Assembly: GCF_003260275.1 (NCBI RefSeq)
Contig: NZ_QJHB01000006.1
Coordinates: 186,001 to 250,000, forward strand
Direction of reading: 5' to 3'
DNA length: 64,000 nt
From: Homoserinimonas sp. OAct 916
GTDB taxonomy: Bacteria; Actinomycetota; Actinomycetes; Actinomycetales; Microbacteriaceae
The position numbers and the translations under genes are program-made. Below, piece after piece: positions 31,853 to 40,518 of this stretch. The notes beneath the pieces were generated by a model. It made no database searches. It was not told the DNA's origin and saw only the letters and a list, made by a program, of their open reading frames with translations. The stretch's first letter is position 1, and each line of letters opens with the position of its first letter.

Positions 31853-31886
31853 CGTCGATGCGCTCGATCAGACGTCGATGCGCTCG
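31853..31886. repeat. 20-bp tandem duplication at the 3' end of parE
   Basis: CGTCGATGCGCTCG occurs at 31853-31866 and 31873-31886, 20 bp apart. On the minus strand the two copies read as the parE ending (ERIDV, stop) and then an almost identical ERIDA-stop outside the gene. An older, longer end may have been shortened, or the end was duplicated. Confidence 0.7.
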
Positions 31887-33955
31887 CGGGAGAGGGTGTC
31901 CGAGCCCTCGATGATGAACTCCTTGCGTGGGGCTACTTCGTTGCCCATCAGCAGTTCGAACACGCGTCCAGCGTTTTCGGCGTCGCGCACGTTCACCCTT
32001 CTCAGGTTGCGGTGGCGACGGTCCATGGTCGTGAGCGCGAGTTGGTCCGCGTCCATCTCACCGAGTCCCTTGTACCGCTGGATCGGATCCTGGTAGCGCT
32101 TGCCCTTCTTCTTCAGCCCTGCCAGCACTCCCTGCAGTTCAGCCTCGGAATAGGTGTAGACCGTCTCGTTCGGTTTAGATCCGGGGTTCATCACGACCAC
32201 CCGGTGAAGGGGAGGCACCGCCGCGAACACACGACCGTCTTCGATCATGGGGCGCATGTAACGGAAGAACAGCGTGAGCAGCAGGGTGCGGATGTGGGCG
32301 CCGTCGACGTCGGCGTCACTCATGATGATCACCTTGCCGTAACGTGCCGCCGACAGGTCGAAGCTGCGCCCGGAGCCCGAGCCGATCACCTGGATGATCG
32401 ATGCGCATTCCGCATTCTGCAACATGTCAGAAACACTGGCCTTCTGCACGTTGAGAATCTTTCCGCGGATCGGCAGCAACGCCTGGTGTTCGCTGTCTCT
32501 GGCATGCTTGGCTGTTCCGAGGGCGGAGTCGCCCTCCACGATGAACAGTTCGCTGTTCTTCACGTCACTGGACCGGCAGTCGACGAGTTTGGCCGGCAGC
32601 GAGGAGTTCTCCAGGGCGTTCTTTCGCCGCTGGGTCTCCTTGTGTGCTCGCGCCGAGATGCGTGACTTCATCTCTGCGACGATCTTGTCGAGCAGGAGAG
32701 CTGACTGGGCCTTGTCGTCGCGTTTGGTCGACGCGAACCGTGCCTTCATCGCATCCGCCACGGTATTCGCGACGATGCTGCGCACGGCGGGCGTGCCCAG
32801 CACTTCTTTGGTCTGGCCCTCGAATTGCGGTTCCGGGAGGCGGACGGTCAAGACGGCGGTCAGCCCGGCGAAGACGTCGTCTTTCTCGAGCTTGCCCGTA
32901 CCGGCCTTCAGACGTCGACTGTTCGCTTCTACCTGTTTGCGCAGAAACTTCAGAATGCCTGCGTCGAATCCACTCTGGTGTGTGCCGCCCTTGGGCGTGG
33001 CAATGATATTGACGAAGCTGCGAACCACCGTGTCGTACCCGGTTCCCCAACGCAGCGCGATGTCGACCTGGCACTCACGCTCGAGTTCTGTGGCCACCAT
33101 TGCGCCACCGGGCGACAGCACGGGCACAGTCTCAGTGAAGGTGCCGGTTCCGGTCAAACGCCACGTGTCGGTGATCGCGGTGTCTGGCGCGAGAAAATCG
33201 ACGTATTCGCCGATCCCGCCGTCATAACGGAAGGTACTGCTGGTCTCCTCGTCTCCGCGCTTGTCGGTGATGTGGATGGATAGTCCGGGAATCAGGAACG
33301 CCGTCTGCCTGGCCCGCATCTCCAGTTCTTCGGTCACGAAGTGCGCACCCTTGGTGAAGACCTGGGGGTCTGCCCAGTATCGGATCCGGGTTCCGGTGGT
33401 CTTTTTTGCGACCTTGCCGAGCACCCGCAGTTCGCTGCCCTTCTCGAATGGGTGAAACGGCGCTTCGGGGTCGGGCCCGCCGGTGTCGGTGAAGACTCCC
33501 GGCTCTCCCCGGTGAAAACTCATCGCCCAGGTCTTACCGTCGCGGTCCACTTCGACGTCTAGCCTCGACGACAACGCGTTCACCACTGAGGCGCCGACTC
33601 CGTGCAGCCCACCGGACGAGGCGTACGATGCGGTGCCGAACTTTCCGCCGGCGTGCAACTTGGTCAATACCACCTCGACGCCGCTCAACCCGGTCTTGGG
33701 CTCGGCATCGACCGGGATGCCCCGGGCTCTGTCCCTCACCTCAACGCTGTTGTCGGGATGCAGAATGATGGTGATCTCGTCTCCGTGCCCAGCCAGTGCC
33801 TCGTCGACCGAGTTGTCGATGATCTCCCAGAGGCAGTGCATCAATCCGCGCGAGTCGGTCGAACCGATATACATTCCCGGGCGCTTGCGAACCGCCTCAA
33901 GCCCTTCGAGAACAGACAGGTGACGTGCGGAATAGTCAGAGCTCGACAAGCTCAT
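31868..33955 (-). CDS. parE: DNA topoisomerase IV subunit B (ParE)
   Basis: ATPase subunit of the type IIA topoisomerase, 695 residues. GHKL ATP site: EIIDNSVDEA, then DRARGIPV (residues 75-82), LHAGGKFG and GGLHGVGASVVNALS. The TOPRIM domain has VEGDSAL and DADVDGAHIRTLL, and the C-terminus has RYKGLGEMDADQL. The usual DDGRG of the ATP site reads DRARG (Ala77 in place of the first Gly). Start ATG 33955 directly behind AGGAGG. The last 6 codons plus stop are tandemly duplicated downstream. Confidence 0.94.
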   Translation of the reverse strand: MSLSSSDYSARHLSVLEGLEAVRKRPGMYIGSTDSRGLMHCLWEIIDNSVDEALAGHGDEITIILHPDNSVEVRDRARGIPVDAEPKTGLSGVEVVLTKLHAGGKFGTASYASSGGLHGVGASVVNALSSRLDVEVDRDGKTWAMSFHRGEPGVFTDTGGPDPEAPFHPFEKGSELRVLGKVAKKTTGTRIRYWADPQVFTKGAHFVTEELEMRARQTAFLIPGLSIHITDKRGDEETSSTFRYDGGIGEYVDFLAPDTAITDTWRLTGTGTFTETVPVLSPGGAMVATELERECQVDIALRWGTGYDTVVRSFVNIIATPKGGTHQSGFDAGILKFLRKQVEANSRRLKAGTGKLEKDDVFAGLTAVLTVRLPEPQFEGQTKEVLGTPAVRSIVANTVADAMKARFASTKRDDKAQSALLLDKIVAEMKSRISARAHKETQRRKNALENSSLPAKLVDCRSSDVKNSELFIVEGDSALGTAKHARDSEHQALLPIRGKILNVQKASVSDMLQNAECASIIQVIGSGSGRSFDLSAARYGKVIIMSDADVDGAHIRTLLLTLFFRYMRPMIEDGRVFAAVPPLHRVVVMNPGSKPNETVYTYSEAELQGVLAGLKKKGKRYQDPIQRYKGLGEMDADQLALTTMDRRHRNLRRVNVRDAENAGRVFELLMGNEVAPRKEFIIEGSDTLSRERIDV

Positions 33956-34205: not shown

Positions 34206-34442
34206 ATGTCACAGATTGCAACCAACGCCCAATCCGTGGACGAGTTAGGCGCTGCGCCACAGCTGACAGCCCTGGATCGTTGCGACAGTTGCGGCGCTCA
34301 GGCCTACATCAGGGTACGCGTCGCCACCGGAGAACTTCTGTTCTGCGCCCACCACGGCAAGAAGTATGAAGAGAAGCTCTCGGCCATCGCGGAGAGCTGG
34401 CACGACGAGTCGAGCCGACTCCTCGAGAACCAGGGCGCCTGA
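34206..34442 (+). CDS. DUF7455 family small zinc-binding-like protein
   Basis: 78 residues from ATG 34206, with GGAGGAGC upstream. Segments LDRCDSCGAQAYIRV (Cys26, Cys29) and LLFCAHHGKKYEEKL (Cys47, His49/His50) form a likely zinc site. It matches a small actinobacterial family often encoded near the primary sigma factor. Function unknown. The 250-bp gap before it holds its promoter and that of parE; no other gene is visible there. Confidence 0.88.
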   Translation: MSQIATNAQSVDELGAAPQLTALDRCDSCGAQAYIRVRVATGELLFCAHHGKKYEEKLSAIAESWHDESSRLLENQGA

Positions 34443-34461: not shown

Positions 34462-34490
34462 CACCGAGAAAGCGCTCAGAGGCCGAGCGC
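34462..34490 (-). terminator. Probable terminator of the rpoD-murT-gatD operon
   Basis: On the minus strand GCGCTC and GAGCGC form a 6-bp stem around a 7-nt loop, followed by TTTCTC. It overlaps the gatD stop codon. The stem is short, so this is a moderate call. Confidence 0.5.
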
Positions 34491-35216
34491 GGTCGTCACT
34501 GCTGACCTCGCATTGGCTGCGAACCGATCGGCTTCCTGCGCCCGCGCAGACGTTGGCAGTGTGCGTCCGGTGCGCTCGAGTGCACGAGACAGCAGATGAT
34601 CGGCGAAGCTCGGATTCCGGGCCAGAATCGGGCCGTGCAGGTGGGTGCCGACCAATGAGCCGGTGAGTGCGCCTTCGGCTCCGTCACCGTTGCCGCTCCC
34701 GTAAGCCACGGTTCCGAGCGGCTTCTCGCCCTGCCCCAACCGATAGTCGGTGGAGTGGTTCTCGTAGCCCACCAACTGACCGTACGCCGTGTCCACGACC
34801 AGGTCATCGCTGATGCGCTGGCTGCGTTTGGATGCGGATCCGCTGAACAGGCCCAGCCCTGCCTCCGATGACCGCCCGGGCGTCAGGAAGCGCTGGCTCA
34901 AAAGGTACCAGCCGGTGCCCACTGCGAGCACCGGAACTCCGGCGGTACCAGCTGCCTCCAGCGCGGGCTGCACCGCCGCCAATCGTTCGTGCGCCCGAAC
35001 CACGTCGGGTTCGCTGCACGCACCGACCACAACGAAATCGACGTCGCGCGGCATCTGCTTGGCGTGCTCTACCTCGATGAGCGAGACGTTGGCGACTCCT
35101 GCCCAGCGCGCCCGTTGGGCGAGCACCCGTGCATTCGCAGCGTCGCCATTGGTGTTGAGGATGCTCGGAAACAGGGTCGCGATCACGAACGCATCGCGTT
35201 CGGTGCCGTCAGACAT
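34476..35216 (-). CDS. GatD-like glutamine amidotransferase subunit lacking the nucleophilic Cys
   Basis: 246 residues, class I glutamine-amidotransferase fold of the CobQ/GatD type. Family landmarks remain: LFPSILNTNGDAANARVL, SEAGLGLFSG, LVGYENHSTDY and VGTHLHGPILARNPSFADHLL with the catalytic-position His192/194. The nucleophile elbow, normally VLAxCGGYQLLG, reads VLAVGTGWYLLS, so the cysteine is Gly100 (GGC). Glutamine hydrolysis by the usual mechanism should be impossible. It overlaps the murT stop by 1 bp (TGATG). In other species MurT-GatD amidates D-Glu of lipid II; here a changed reaction is likely. Confidence 0.9.
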   Translation of the reverse strand: MSDGTERDAFVIATLFPSILNTNGDAANARVLAQRARWAGVANVSLIEVEHAKQMPRDVDFVVVGACSEPDVVRAHERLAAVQPALEAAGTAGVPVLAVGTGWYLLSQRFLTPGRSSEAGLGLFSGSASKRSQRISDDLVVDTAYGQLVGYENHSTDYRLGQGEKPLGTVAYGSGNGDGAEGALTGSLVGTHLHGPILARNPSFADHLLSRALERTGRTLPTSARAQEADRFAANARSAVTTALGL

Positions 35217-36481
35217 CAGACGGTCTCCTTGTTCACAGACAGCCCGAGGTGAACCCGGGTTCGCCGCATGGCATCGGCGGTGAAGATGATCGTCTTGTGA
35301 CCGACCGCAGGCTTCGGAAGCGCGAGGAATGCGTCCAAACCGGCGGCCAGATCAGGCTCCACCCGGTCGACAGCCACCCCGTCGTAGACGAGTTGCAGCG
35401 CGGCATCCCAGGCTTTCGATCCCGTCACCATGTTCACAGTTCCGAGGCCTGAGGTGTCCACCGGCCACAGGTACGACGGGTCACGGACGTCAGAACCGAC
35501 TGCGAGAAGAACTTGTTCTGTATTCGCCTCCATGCTGTCGAGGTTCAACTGGTAGCTGGCCGGGTTCTGCACGAGGATGAACTCCACGGTCTCCCCCCCG
35601 ATTTCGACGACCTCACCACGGCCGAACACCGGCGGCAATGAGCCGATGGTCTTCGCGGCCAGGGCGAGGTCGAATGATTCCCCGAGTATCGTTGCCGCGG
35701 TCTCGATCGCAGCGGCCGCGTCAACGGCGTAATGCACACCCCGGGCCGGCAACGTCACCCGGCACACCTCGCCCGCGTGAACGACCTCGGCTTCTCTGGC
35801 AGCGACGGAGACCAGCAGAGTGCCATCCTCTGCGGGGAGCCTCACATCGGTCATTGCGGTGTAGCCGAGCCCTCGCGGGTTCGCGGCCAATACCTCGTCA
35901 GACACTCCGAAATACCGGATGGCCGCGAGCACGTCGGGTGCGCCAGCAATCTCCATGAGGAAAGCGTCATCGGCATTCAGAATGACGGTGCCCCCGGTCG
36001 CCTCCGCCATGGTGTGCAACATGTCTGCCACCATCTGGGAATCGTGGAACCGATCGATCTGGTCGACCATGACGTTCGTCAGCAACAGAATATCCGGCTG
36101 CACACGCTCGACCAGGGCAGCGCCGTGCCCCTCGTCGAGTTCGAGCACGGCCATTCTTTGATGAACCCGGCCACGCAGGTCAGAACGTTCCAACAGCGCC
36201 GAGGTGAGCCCCTGCGCAATATTGGCCGTCGATGGGTTGGTGAATACTTCCACGCCGTGCGCAGCCAGAACCGCCACCACCATTTTTGTGATCGTTGATT
36301 TGCCTGCCGAGCCTGAAATCATGACCAGACCATCAGGAAAGCTCTTCAACGCGTGACCGAGGTATCCCGGCGCAATTGTGTTGACCACCAGTCCCGGGAT
36401 GGCCGAGCCGCCGCCGGGCTTTCGAATGCGGGCGAGCAGTCGCACCAGCCGTCCGCTCAGAACGGCTGCCGTGTAACGCAT
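35216..36481 (-). CDS. MurT-like Mur ligase without the zinc ribbon
   Basis: 421 residues, Mur-ligase family with C-terminal DUF1727. P-loop SGSAGKST (Lys61) replaces the usual GTNGKT; Mur features NPSTANIAQGLTSALL, LELDEGH, LLTNVMVDQIDRF and NADDAF follow. Canonical MurT carries a four-Cys zinc ribbon in its middle domain. Here the equivalent part (about 195-250) has no CXXC and the whole protein has one cysteine (Cys240). The DUF1727 motif resembling DxSWxWD reads DPSYLWP (334-340). It starts 13 bp after rpoD and is coupled to the GatD-like gene. Confidence 0.9.
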   Translation of the reverse strand: MRYTAAVLSGRLVRLLARIRKPGGGSAIPGLVVNTIAPGYLGHALKSFPDGLVMISGSAGKSTITKMVVAVLAAHGVEVFTNPSTANIAQGLTSALLERSDLRGRVHQRMAVLELDEGHGAALVERVQPDILLLTNVMVDQIDRFHDSQMVADMLHTMAEATGGTVILNADDAFLMEIAGAPDVLAAIRYFGVSDEVLAANPRGLGYTAMTDVRLPAEDGTLLVSVAAREAEVVHAGEVCRVTLPARGVHYAVDAAAAIETAATILGESFDLALAAKTIGSLPPVFGRGEVVEIGGETVEFILVQNPASYQLNLDSMEANTEQVLLAVGSDVRDPSYLWPVDTSGLGTVNMVTGSKAWDAALQLVYDGVAVDRVEPDLAAGLDAFLALPKPAVGHKTIIFTADAMRRTRVHLGLSVNKETV

Positions 36482-36494
36482 TCCTGCGTTCTCC

Positions 36495-38018
36495 CTACTC
36501 GAGGTAGTCGCGCAGCGATTGGGAGCGCGACGGGTGCCGGAGTTTGGCCATGGTCTTGGACTCTATCTGCCGAATGCGCTCACGAGTCACACCAAAGGTG
36601 TCGCCTATCTGGTCGAGAGTCTTCGGCATTCCGTCGCCCAGTCCGAACCGCATGCGAATCACGCCGGCTTCGCGCTCGGACAACGAGTCGAGCAGAGACT
36701 CCAGCTGACGCTGCAGCATGGTGAAGCCCACGGCATCGGCTGGAACCACTGCCTCGGTGTCTTCGATCAGGTCGCCGAACTCGCTGTCGCCGTCTTCTCC
36801 CAGTGGGGTGTGCAGTGAGATCGGCTCGCGACCGTACTTCTGCACCTCGACGACCTTCTCCGGGGTCATGTCCAGTTCGCGACTGAGCTCGTCGGGAGTT
36901 GGCTCCCGGCCGAGGTCCTGAAGCATCTGGCGCTGAACCCGCGCCAGCTTGTTGATGACCTCCACCATGTGCACGGGGATCCGAATCGTGCGCGCCTGGT
37001 CGGCCATGGCACGGGTGATCGCCTGCCGGATCCACCAGGTCGCGTAGGTCGAGAACTTGAAGCCCTTCGTGTAGTCGAACTTTTCAACCGCACGGATAAG
37101 ACCCAGGTTGCCCTCTTGGATGAGGTCGAGAAACTGCATGCCACGCCCGGTGTAGCGCTTGGCGAGGCTGACCACCAGTCTCAGGTTGGCACCGAGCAGG
37201 TGGCTCTTCGCGCGTTGACCATCACGGGCAACCCACTGCAGTTCGCGGGTCTCCTGCTTGGTGCGCTTCTCACCGTCAGCCAGCCGGTCCTCGGCGAACA
37301 GTCCTGCCTCGATCCGCATGGCCAGTTCGACTTCTTGGGCGGCGTTGAGCAGGGCCACGCGCCCGATCTGCTTCAAATAGTCCTTGACGGGGTCGGCGGT
37401 GGCTCCGGTGATTGCACCGGAGTAGACGGGGAGATCATCGTCGTCTTCCTTCGCGGTGAGAACGATTGCCCCGGTCGGCAGGGATCCGGCAGAACCAGTG
37501 GTCTCTGTGGACTCTTCGTCCTGGTCGTCATCGACCTCGATATCGGCGGAGGCGACCGCGAGGGCCTCATCCTTCGTGGTCGGCTTTGTGGCGGCCTTCT
37601 TCGCCGCTGGCTTCTTCGCGGCCGGGGCGGCGGCCTTGGCGGGCGCGGCCTTCTTGGCAGGCGCCTTCTGGGCGGGCGCGGCCTTGGCGACCGGAGCAGA
37701 GGCCCCCGCCTTCTCAGCAGCGGACTTGGTGGGCGCTGCCTTGGCCGCGGCCGCTTTCGTGGCAGGCGTCTTGCTCGCAGGCGTCTTGCTCGCGGGTGTC
37801 TTGGCCGCGGGTGTCTTGGCCGCTGGAGTCTTCGCTGCGGTCTTGGCGGGCGTCTTCGTCGCAGCAGCCTTCGTGGCGGCTGACTCGGTGGCAGTTGACC
37901 CGGTGGCAGTTGACTTCACTGTGGCGCTTGTGGTCGCCGAAGTCTCAGTCTTTGCCGCCGTTTTCTTGCGTGCAGCCGGGGCCGCCTCAGTCTTTTCCTG
38001 TGGAGCCTTGATGGCCAT
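36495..38018 (-). CDS. rpoD: Primary RNA polymerase sigma factor (SigA/RpoD/HrdB type)
   Basis: Group 1 sigma-70 factor, about 507 residues from ATG 38018 (AAAGG site upstream); the frame is open to 38123. Region 1.2 ([21 protein letters not shown]), region 2 ([39 protein letters not shown]), region 3 and region 4 ([18 protein letters not shown]) are intact. The first 160 residues are a histone-H1-like Ala/Lys/Pro repeat (AAKTPA, ASKTPA). It is the first gene of an operon with murT and gatD, only 13 bp apart. Confidence 0.97.
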
Positions 38019-38221
38019 TCCGTTACCTTTCACACCAGCCCACCACCTGCAATTCGGGGCACTTCCGGCTGGTTCCGGTTGAATGCGGACATTACTAAGA
38101 CCCATGTCAAGTCTTTCTGTCACAACCGCAGGCGGTTGAACGACCGAAAGCTCGAACGGGTCCTATTGACAAGTATTGCATATTTCAGTATGCGTAACAG
38201 CCACGCGTGTTCCGAGACGGT

Positions 38222-39553
38222 TCACTTCTTCCGCGGCTTGAACCACCTGTCCCCCAGTGCAACCCAAATCGGTGCCACTTCAATTCCCTCATCCCTCGAG
38301 AGAAGCAGTCGAGTCTTGCGCCGGTAGCGAAACACCATGAACACTCCGAATGCCAGCATGAGGTATTGCACGCTGAACGCCACCTTGAAATTCGGCAACG
38401 AATACAACACTGAGAGCGCATCCGACGCACCCTGCATCCTGTTGAGCAGGTCGAGGATCAATCCGATCATGAACATGGTTACGAATGACGCGGTGAACCC
38501 GCCCACGTTCACGATTCCGGTCGCCACCCCCAGGCTCCGCAGCGGGTTGAAGGTTCGGGCGTAGTCGAAACCGATCAGGGAACCAGGTCCGCCGATCCCC
38601 ATGCTGATGATCAACAGAACGACGGCCCAGAACGGCGGCTCACCCGGCCAGAGCAGAACAAGGCCCCAGGCCGCAGCGATGATGAAGACCACAGTGAGGA
38701 TCAGGTTGCTGCGCCTGGTCGGGTACCGGGCAGACAAGAGGCCGAGTGCGGGCCCGACCACCATCCCGGTGAACACCGGAATGGTCAGCAACGCCGCGGC
38801 CAGCGTGGGTTCATACCCGAGGCCGTAGACCATGAACGGAAAACCCCACAGCAGGCTGAATACAGTTCCCGGTGACTGAGTGACGAAATGAGACCAGAAC
38901 CCCAGTTGCGTGCCCGCACGCGCGAAACTGAACTTCAACTGTTGGATGGCGAGACCCCAAGTGCCGGGAACCGTTTCGGGGCGGACCCCTGCGGGGTTAT
39001 CGGTCAGTGAGGCGAGAACGGCGACGAAGGCGACCACCGAGAGTGCAGCGGCCCAAAGGAACGCGGGCGTCCAGCCGACACTGTGCAGCAACCAGACGAA
39101 CGGTACAGCCGAAAGGATCTGCCCGAGCTGCCCGATGTTGCCGGTCCACTGGGCGAGCTGTGGCACGATCCGACCAGTGAACCACGAACTGATCAACCGA
39201 ATCACCGAGATGAAGAGCATCGCATCGCCCGCTCCGACCAGGATGCGGCCGACCAGGGCCATCCCGATACCGGGTGCGACTGCGAGAGTGACCTGCCCCA
39301 CGATCATGAGTGCCGTTCCCATCAGGATCAGAAAGCGCGGACCCAACCTGTCGATCAGAATTCCGACGGGCACCTGCATCAGCGCGTAGAACACCAGTTG
39401 AACGACCGCGAGGGACGACAGGAACGTCGCCGACGTGTCGAACCGCTCGGCGGCAGACACCCCGGCCACCCCGAGAGACGTGCGCTGCAAGACGGCCGCG
39501 AGGTAGGCGAACGTTCCAACGGAAAAGACAAGCCAGGATCGGCGGGTGTTCAT
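38222..39553 (-). CDS. MFS transporter
   Basis: 443 residues with about twelve hydrophobic segments, major facilitator superfamily. The loop 2-3 signature is seen as GILIDRLGPRF, and the pattern around FLSSLAVVQLVFYALMQVPVG resembles nitrate/sugar-phosphate-type or multidrug members. Substrate cannot be told. The C-terminus is basic (RYRRKTRLLLSRDE, PRKK). It lies 38 bp downstream of the PAC2 gene on the same strand, so probably the same transcript. Confidence 0.88.
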   Translation of the reverse strand: MNTRRSWLVFSVGTFAYLAAVLQRTSLGVAGVSAAERFDTSATFLSSLAVVQLVFYALMQVPVGILIDRLGPRFLILMGTALMIVGQVTLAVAPGIGMALVGRILVGAGDAMLFISVIRLISSWFTGRIVPQLAQWTGNIGQLGQILSAVPFVWLLHSVGWTPAFLWAAALSVVAFVAVLASLTDNPAGVRPETVPGTWGLAIQQLKFSFARAGTQLGFWSHFVTQSPGTVFSLLWGFPFMVYGLGYEPTLAAALLTIPVFTGMVVGPALGLLSARYPTRRSNLILTVVFIIAAAWGLVLLWPGEPPFWAVVLLIISMGIGGPGSLIGFDYARTFNPLRSLGVATGIVNVGGFTASFVTMFMIGLILDLLNRMQGASDALSVLYSLPNFKVAFSVQYLMLAFGVFMVFRYRRKTRLLLSRDEGIEVAPIWVALGDRWFKPRKK

Positions 39554-39591: not shown

Positions 39592-40518
39592 TCAGGCCGT
39601 CGGTGGGTCGCCGTCCCTGTGTCGTTTCGTGGCCAAAAACTTTTCCAGTTCGGCCGCGATCTCGTCGGCGGTGGGCAGTTCTCCGTCTTCATCCGTCAAC
39701 GGGGAACGCAGTGCCGTTCCCTCCATGTAGGTATCGTGACGTTCTTCCAACGCGCCGACCAGCCGAGCGAGTTCCTCGTTATTCGCAACTTGTTCGTCAA
39801 TCTTCGTGACGAATTCACGCCCGGCCTCCCGAAGGTGGTCGGTCGGAAAAATCAATCCGGTCGCGGTGCTCACGCAGTCCATCGCGGTCAGCGCAGCCGT
39901 CGGAAATTCGGTGTCAGCCAGATAATGCGGGATGAGAAGCGCATAGCCGACGACAGGAGCCTCTTGTTGGTACAGCCTGTACTCCAGCAGCTGCACCACA
40001 TTCGCGGGCACCTGCGTGGTCGGCTTCCAGACCGAGAGAGCTTCTATCAGCTCCGCCTGGTTGCCGCTCACCGTCACACTGATCGGACGGGTGTGCGGCA
40101 CCGGCATCGGGATGGCGTGCAGCCAACAGGTCAACGACACCTGATATCGGGCGATCAAGTCGATGAGCGCCTGCACGAATCGCTCCCATTTGAAGTCCGG
40201 CTCGAAACCGGTCAACAGCAAGAACGGCGAGTGCATCTCGTCCCAGACCAGAAACAACCGGAGTGTCGCCGGGTTGTATTCGGTGAGGTGGTCGTGTTCG
40301 AAGAGCACAATCGGTCGCCGCGCGCGATAGTCCAGCAATTCATCGGTATCGAACTTCGCAACCAGTTCTGTCTGCAGCGATTCAAGGATGTAGTCCCCGA
40401 ATTGGCTCACCGCACTGCCAGCGTCGGCGAATCCGGTCAGGCCAACGATGAGTGGAAGGCCGGGGGGAATCACCGGCCCCTCCGGGCTCAGCTCGTAAAG
40501 TTCGGCAGGATCACGCAT
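39592..40518 (-). CDS. PAC2 family protein
   Basis: 308 residues, soluble, related to the proteasome assembly chaperone PAC2 fold. Segments include LIVGLTGFADAGSAVSQFGDY, LLLTGFEPDFKWERFVQAL, VGYALLIPHYLADTEFPTAALTAM and a charged C-terminal tail with LPTADEIAAELEKFL. No proteasome gene lies in the window. The function in actinobacteria is not established. ATG 40518 follows TAGAGT by 6 nt, suggesting a leaderless mRNA; it is divergent from pepA. Confidence 0.88.
   Translation of the reverse strand: MRDPAELYELSPEGPVIPPGLPLIVGLTGFADAGSAVSQFGDYILESLQTELVAKFDTDELLDYRARRPIVLFEHDHLTEYNPATLRLFLVWDEMHSPFLLLTGFEPDFKWERFVQALIDLIARYQVSLTCWLHAIPMPVPHTRPISVTVSGNQAELIEALSVWKPTTQVPANVVQLLEYRLYQQEAPVVGYALLIPHYLADTEFPTAALTAMDCVSTATGLIFPTDHLREAGREFVTKIDEQVANNEELARLVGALEERHDTYMEGTALRSPLTDEDGELPTADEIAAELEKFLATKRHRDGDPPTA

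Follow-up and report, generated by a model that had tools for sequence, protein, structure and literature searches.

Cysteine-less MurT/GatD pairs of the sigA-parE interval in Microbacteriaceae as candidate amino-acid ligases for the group-B cross-bridge

The MurT/GatD pair normally puts ammonia on a building block of the cell wall. What does such a pair do when its glutaminase subunit has no catalytic cysteine, and when its owner belongs to the Microbacteriaceae, a family generally described as B-type, whose group-B wall, a type known for decades, serves as a chemotaxonomic hallmark? The question is raised by two adjoining genes of Homoserinimonas sp. OAct 916, located in the 64,000 nucleotides that were analysed as a whole (the window) and belonging to a genome of 3.64 Mb that is 100% complete. 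A search of the full text in PubMed Central, which does not extend to subscription papers, turned up no account of MurT/GatD from organisms with B-type walls, and the enzyme that attaches the cross-bridge to D-Glu in group-B peptidoglycan is not named in the literature found.

The gatD and murT genes of the window

The two open reading frames lie on the same strand and overlap by one base. The genes and their diagnostic codons are as follows.

34476-35216, minus strand: gatD, Cys-less glutaminase-fold subunit, type I, 246 aa
34917-34919, minus strand: codon of GatD Gly100, at the place of the S. aureus nucleophile Cys94
34635-34637, minus strand: codon of GatD His194 (S. aureus H189), within THLHGP, kept in the window but lost in many type II relatives and in those of types III/IV
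35216-36481, minus strand: murT, Mur-ligase-like subunit, type I, 421 aa, without the Cys4 ribbon
36299-36301, minus strand: codon of the MurT P-loop Lys61 (motif GSAGKST), conserved
36065-36067, minus strand: codon of MurT Val139, an Arg in canonical enzymes
35480-35482, minus strand: codon of MurT Asp334, equivalent to S. aureus Asp349, conserved

GatD belongs to GATase_3 (E 1.8e-16), and its nearest relative in the PDB is S. aureus GatD (5n9m/6gs2; E 8e-26). MurT comprises Mur_ligase_M and MurT_C domains (Pfam, 7e-10 and 6.5e-7) and also matches the MurT of solved complexes. Both proteins fall far under the equivalog cut-offs of the NCBIfam isoglutaminyl-synthase models (98 versus 450 and 90 versus 800 bits). 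Their AlphaFold models reach pLDDT values of 96 and 91; that of GatD retains the fold of the S. aureus protein (TM 0.80) and that of MurT resembles the MurF and pMurE structures.

A first reading of this DNA from sequence alone had proposed that the GatD nucleophile is replaced by Gly100, and the alignment with S. aureus Cys94 bears this out. The catalytic histidine of THLHGP is His194, His192 being paired with a Tyr of canonical GatD. Equally correct was the description of MurT as a protein with a single cysteine (C240), no Cys4 ribbon and the motif DPSYLWP, which corresponds to DTSWIYD in S. aureus. The glutaminase residue is thus gone with the ligase residues kept, as had been claimed: besides Lys61 and Asp334, MurT retains Glu114 (E108, the Mg glutamate) and Arg288. 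Asp349 is a catalytic residue of S. aureus MurT (PMC6113224). A single MurT_C match above cut-off was found in the genome, hence no second MurT over that threshold, and further GATase_3 matches score far lower; another complete murT/gatD, which according to the first reading would have spoken against its proposal, was not found there. Chance and sequencing error are excluded because the features occur family-wide.

The pair shares with MurT/GatD of S. aureus, S. pneumoniae and M. tuberculosis the operon, both folds, the MurT ATP site and the D349 equivalent. It also resembles the isoglutaminyl synthase in the conserved GatD histidine and in a MurT without the N-terminal UDP-binding domain, but differs in the change of the catalytic Cys to Gly, in altered MurT positions that are otherwise invariant and in its location between sigA and parE. 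In MurC-F and the archaeal pMur ligases a carboxyl group is activated with ATP and attacked by the amine of an amino acid, a chemistry that is here proposed for the window MurT as well; unlike these enzymes, the latter has no N-terminal UDP-binding domain and adjoins a gene for a GatD-like partner.

Repeated loss of the GatD cysteine

The GatD cysteine is missing in 111 of 127 Microbacteriaceae loci (about 60 genera) and present in all 50 relatives sampled from the order's other families. Named relatives in Cryobacterium, Naasia and Frondihabitans are Cys-less too. In the alignment its position is occupied by G, A or S in 67/67 rows of types I and II and by Cys in 40/40 canonical rows. MurT has changed as well: position 139 is Arg in all 40 canonical rows and V, T or I in 66 of the 67 type I/II rows, the remaining one having D, and the nearly invariant canonical residues R139, N254, G309 and N329 (window positions) are altered in type I/II. 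The ATP and acyl-phosphate residues are common to canonical and type I/II enzymes. Among 300 Microbacteriaceae genomes MurT occurs in 245 and GatD in 240, mostly the same genomes; about 55-60 have no pair, which rules out a universal presence of MurT/GatD in the family. That all Microbacteriaceae are Cys-less is likewise ruled out, by genera with canonical pairs outside the sigA-parE interval.

The window pair is of type I, which shares a MurT clade with type II. A second clade unites types III and IV, which have a zinc ribbon and elbows such as FTHNALEVLG, with a type III-like group of another class. A single origin of the Cys-less pairs was rejected by a tree test that forced the Cys-less MurTs together (p_AU 1.2e-5), so the glutaminase has been lost at least twice. 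The zinc ribbon, the loss of which the sequence-only reading had considered meaningful, is uncoupled from cysteine loss in both directions: canonical Cys-containing pairs (L136, L138, L142) have no ribbon and the Cys-less types III and IV have one. It was therefore rejected as a functional marker. Loss of the cysteine is not confined to Microbacteriaceae, as judged from Cys-less pairs in a second class of the same phylum, probably Coriobacteriia. These type III-like pairs (L260-L267; G785, G805, G815, G678, G689, G795, G856, G910) have the elbow LFTGNA or IFSGNA, carbamate kinase adjoins most of them, and a CofE-like gene is also present at L264. A Cys-containing pair in a draft genome (L137, G292) groups with another class and is probably contamination.

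Could GatD be a decaying remnant, with MurT acting alone or the pair non-functional? GatD diverges more than MurT, many type II relatives have lost the His motif, and streamlined genomes (L063, L163) encode a strongly degenerate form of the protein. Set against this are purifying selection on GatD (dN/dS mostly 0.1-0.6), its near-universal retention together with MurT across about 60 genera, genomes of 1.4 Mb included, and an intact fold that is predicted with confidence. Decay is therefore very improbable.

Three streamlined freshwater-type genomes of 1.4-1.5 Mb (L063, L163, L304) retain the pair despite a strongly degenerate GatD. Another genome (G163) has two GatD matches of the Cys-less type (C4 and C2), one in the sigA-parE interval and the other elsewhere. 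A family member with a genome of 0.9 Mb (G015, L300) keeps a Cys-less GatD with the elbow AISNGLRLLS and a racemase-family neighbour.

The sigA-parE slot and its cassettes

The genes around the Cys-less pairs follow the order PAC2 - MFS - sigA - slot - DUF7455 - parE. In the window these are:

31868-33955, minus strand: parE (DNA topoisomerase IV / gyrB family), a conserved gene flanking the slot
34206-34442, plus strand: small DUF7455-type gene, border of the slot on the parE side
36495-38123, minus strand: sigA (rpoD), likewise conserved and flanking the slot
38222-39553, minus strand: MFS transporter adjoining sigA
39592-40518, minus strand: PAC2-family gene, outer conserved flank

Among the 127 family loci, the slot is the location of 108 of 111 Cys-less GatD genes and of 0 of 16 Cys-containing ones (raw counts that ignore kinship); the three exceptions (L029, L170, L300) are loci cut short or uncertain. 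Both independent lineages of cysteine loss end in this same slot. The MFS gene accompanies sigA in most filled slots and, among the empty slots inspected, in L259 only. Five genomes with an empty slot have a canonical pair elsewhere (G014, G003, G082, G059, G087) and two have no pair at all (G019, G051); five empty-slot genomes represent one basal clade.

Genes that share the slot encode members of the alanine-racemase family, EctB, ATPgrasp_ST and F420_ligase, a CofE-like amide ligase. Racemase-family genes accompany 28 Cys-less loci, and an EctB-like gene adjoins the Cys-less pair of L303. In the window, the slot is of type I and holds MurT/GatD only, without a racemase of its own. In most of the inspected genomes without MurT/GatD the slot is occupied by the CofE-like ligase (n=15). 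ATPgrasp_ST and members of the alanine-racemase family frequently accompany it, and two of these slots also contain a gene for diaminobutyrate transaminase:

L256, 5221-6489, minus strand: EctB-like diaminobutyrate-2-oxoglutarate transaminase in a CofE-type slot, above the EctB equivalog cut-off
L268, 1492-2814, plus strand: EctB-like diaminobutyrate-2-oxoglutarate transaminase in a CofE-type slot

CofE itself (F420-0:gamma-glutamyl ligase) is an amide ligase with a fold unrelated to MurT/GatD; the CofE-like protein that fills the same slot without a Cys-less MurT/GatD scores 33 bits against the model of true CofE, the cut-off being 181. One CofE-type slot contains tandem racemase-fold genes (L272, 6460-7134 and 5423-6463), the upstream copy possibly truncated.

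A tree of ParE, SigA and PAC2 from 81 loci requires at least 33 changes of slot content, many of them between loci that stand close together on it; this looks like in-place replacement of cassettes. On a narrow balance of this evidence, the sigA-parE interval would be a modular bridge locus in which at least five amide-ligase cassettes, repeatedly swapped in place and joined by genes for racemases, DAB transaminase and ATP-grasp enzymes, set the B1 or B2 chemotype of each species, the pseudo-glutaminase MurT/GatD pairs being amino-acid ligases.

The cassettes are not always exclusive. In type IV slots (L169, L170; G122, G053) a CofE-like gene is found upstream of MurT/GatD; at L169 an alanine-racemase-family gene lies immediately downstream of gatD. 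This counts against the ligase reading in its plainest form, since CofE and MurT/GatD cannot be simple alternatives for one step when type IV slots carry both. The pair might instead contribute the second residue of the bridge, or some other substituent of the B-type wall, a CofE-like or ATP-grasp enzyme having carried out the first step. Such a sequence would be consistent with the type IV slots, with the frequent ATP-grasp genes of type III slots and with the two bridge residues of B1 walls in the Schleifer-Kandler classification. Many slots, however, carry MurT/GatD alone (the window among them) and many carry CofE without MurT/GatD, a pattern that matches alternatives better than sequential steps, and no CofE was found in the window genome. 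A second-step role is thus quite unlikely.

The proposed reaction and the type of peptidoglycan

In S. aureus the same substitution has been made experimentally: GatD C94G abolishes the use of glutamine and leaves NH3-dependent ligation intact, and MurT alone is inactive (PMC3266927). By analogy, a GatD in which Cys has naturally become Gly would be expected to go on supporting a MurT that accepts an amine from outside, and this amine would be an amino acid because neighbours in the slot supply D-amino acids and DAB. The pair is probably an amino-acid ligase for the B-type cross-bridge, its substrate, its product and the B-type link in the window organism being predicted from genomic data. In the proposed mechanism MurT would use ATP to convert the alpha-carboxyl of D-Glu in the lipid-linked wall precursor into an acyl phosphate. 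GatD would be a pseudo-glutaminase, retained as the partner that MurT requires. A free amino acid would attack in the place of ammonia, and the group-B cross-bridge would begin with it; according to the variant of the pair, the likeliest candidates are Gly and D-diamino acids such as D-DAB, D-Orn or D-Lys. The pair would then be one of several exchangeable ligase cassettes (MurT/GatD I-IV or CofE-like) of a bridge locus between sigA and parE. An amino acid in place of ammonia in a group-B wall was also the core of the sequence-only reading; this part came through all the genomic tests that were run and may well stand, unlike the weight given there to the zinc ribbon.

The main competitor is a complex that still amidates lipid II, from free ammonia, with GatD as a purely structural partner. 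The C94G enzyme supports NH3-dependent amidation at pH 8.5, but the wild-type S. aureus enzyme makes no use of NH3 at pH 7.5 (PMC3266927). The carbamate kinase beside the type III-like pairs outside Microbacteriaceae could provide ammonia and counts against the amino-acid ligase. In a mass-spectrometric study of Clavibacter muropeptides some D-Glu was reported to be amidated (PMC9603630), and B-type walls are thus not devoid of this modification. Ammonia use does not predict two losses of the cysteine in one bridge-like slot, racemase and EctB neighbours, replacement by a CofE-like protein, or mutual exclusion with canonical pairs and FemAB, and the four altered MurT residues of types I and II also argue against it. 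Retained amidation is therefore rather unlikely.

The amino-acid ligase would agree with the chemistry of the one slot owner in the data whose peptidoglycan has been typed chemically. Rhodoluna lacicola (G010, L063; a contig of 1,430,433 bp) carries in the slot a type I pair whose GatD is degenerate, and its peptidoglycan is B2beta with D-Ala-D-Dab and Gly-D-Glu (PMC4156110). In B2gamma walls D-Glu is joined to D-Ala by D-DAB (PMC9603630). FemAB and FemX, the bridge enzymes of A-type walls, resemble the proposed pair in placing bridge amino acids on lipid-linked precursors but differ in using aminoacyl-tRNA as donor and the side chain of the diamino acid as site. FemAB matches, modest yet above the Pfam cut-off, occur in 8 of the 14 cassette-free genomes versus 0 of the 19 that carry a cassette (raw counts, kinship ignored). 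That the slot ligases make some other surface modification, unrelated to bridge type and matching B-type taxonomy by coincidence, gains from the single typed slot owner and from a contrast dominated by one clade; the slot genes for D-amino acids and diaminobutyrate, the ancestry of MurT and the exclusion of FemAB make it highly implausible.

If the ligase reading is true, a glutamine amidotransferase has become an amino-acid ligase through loss of its glutaminase, at least twice and at one locus. The slot offers candidates for the D-Glu bridge enzyme, for racemases and for suppliers of diamino acids, and its content could allow the type of peptidoglycan to be read from genomes. Aurantimicrobium minutum (G059), with a genome of 1,622,386 bp (PMC4929513), has a canonical pair and an empty slot.
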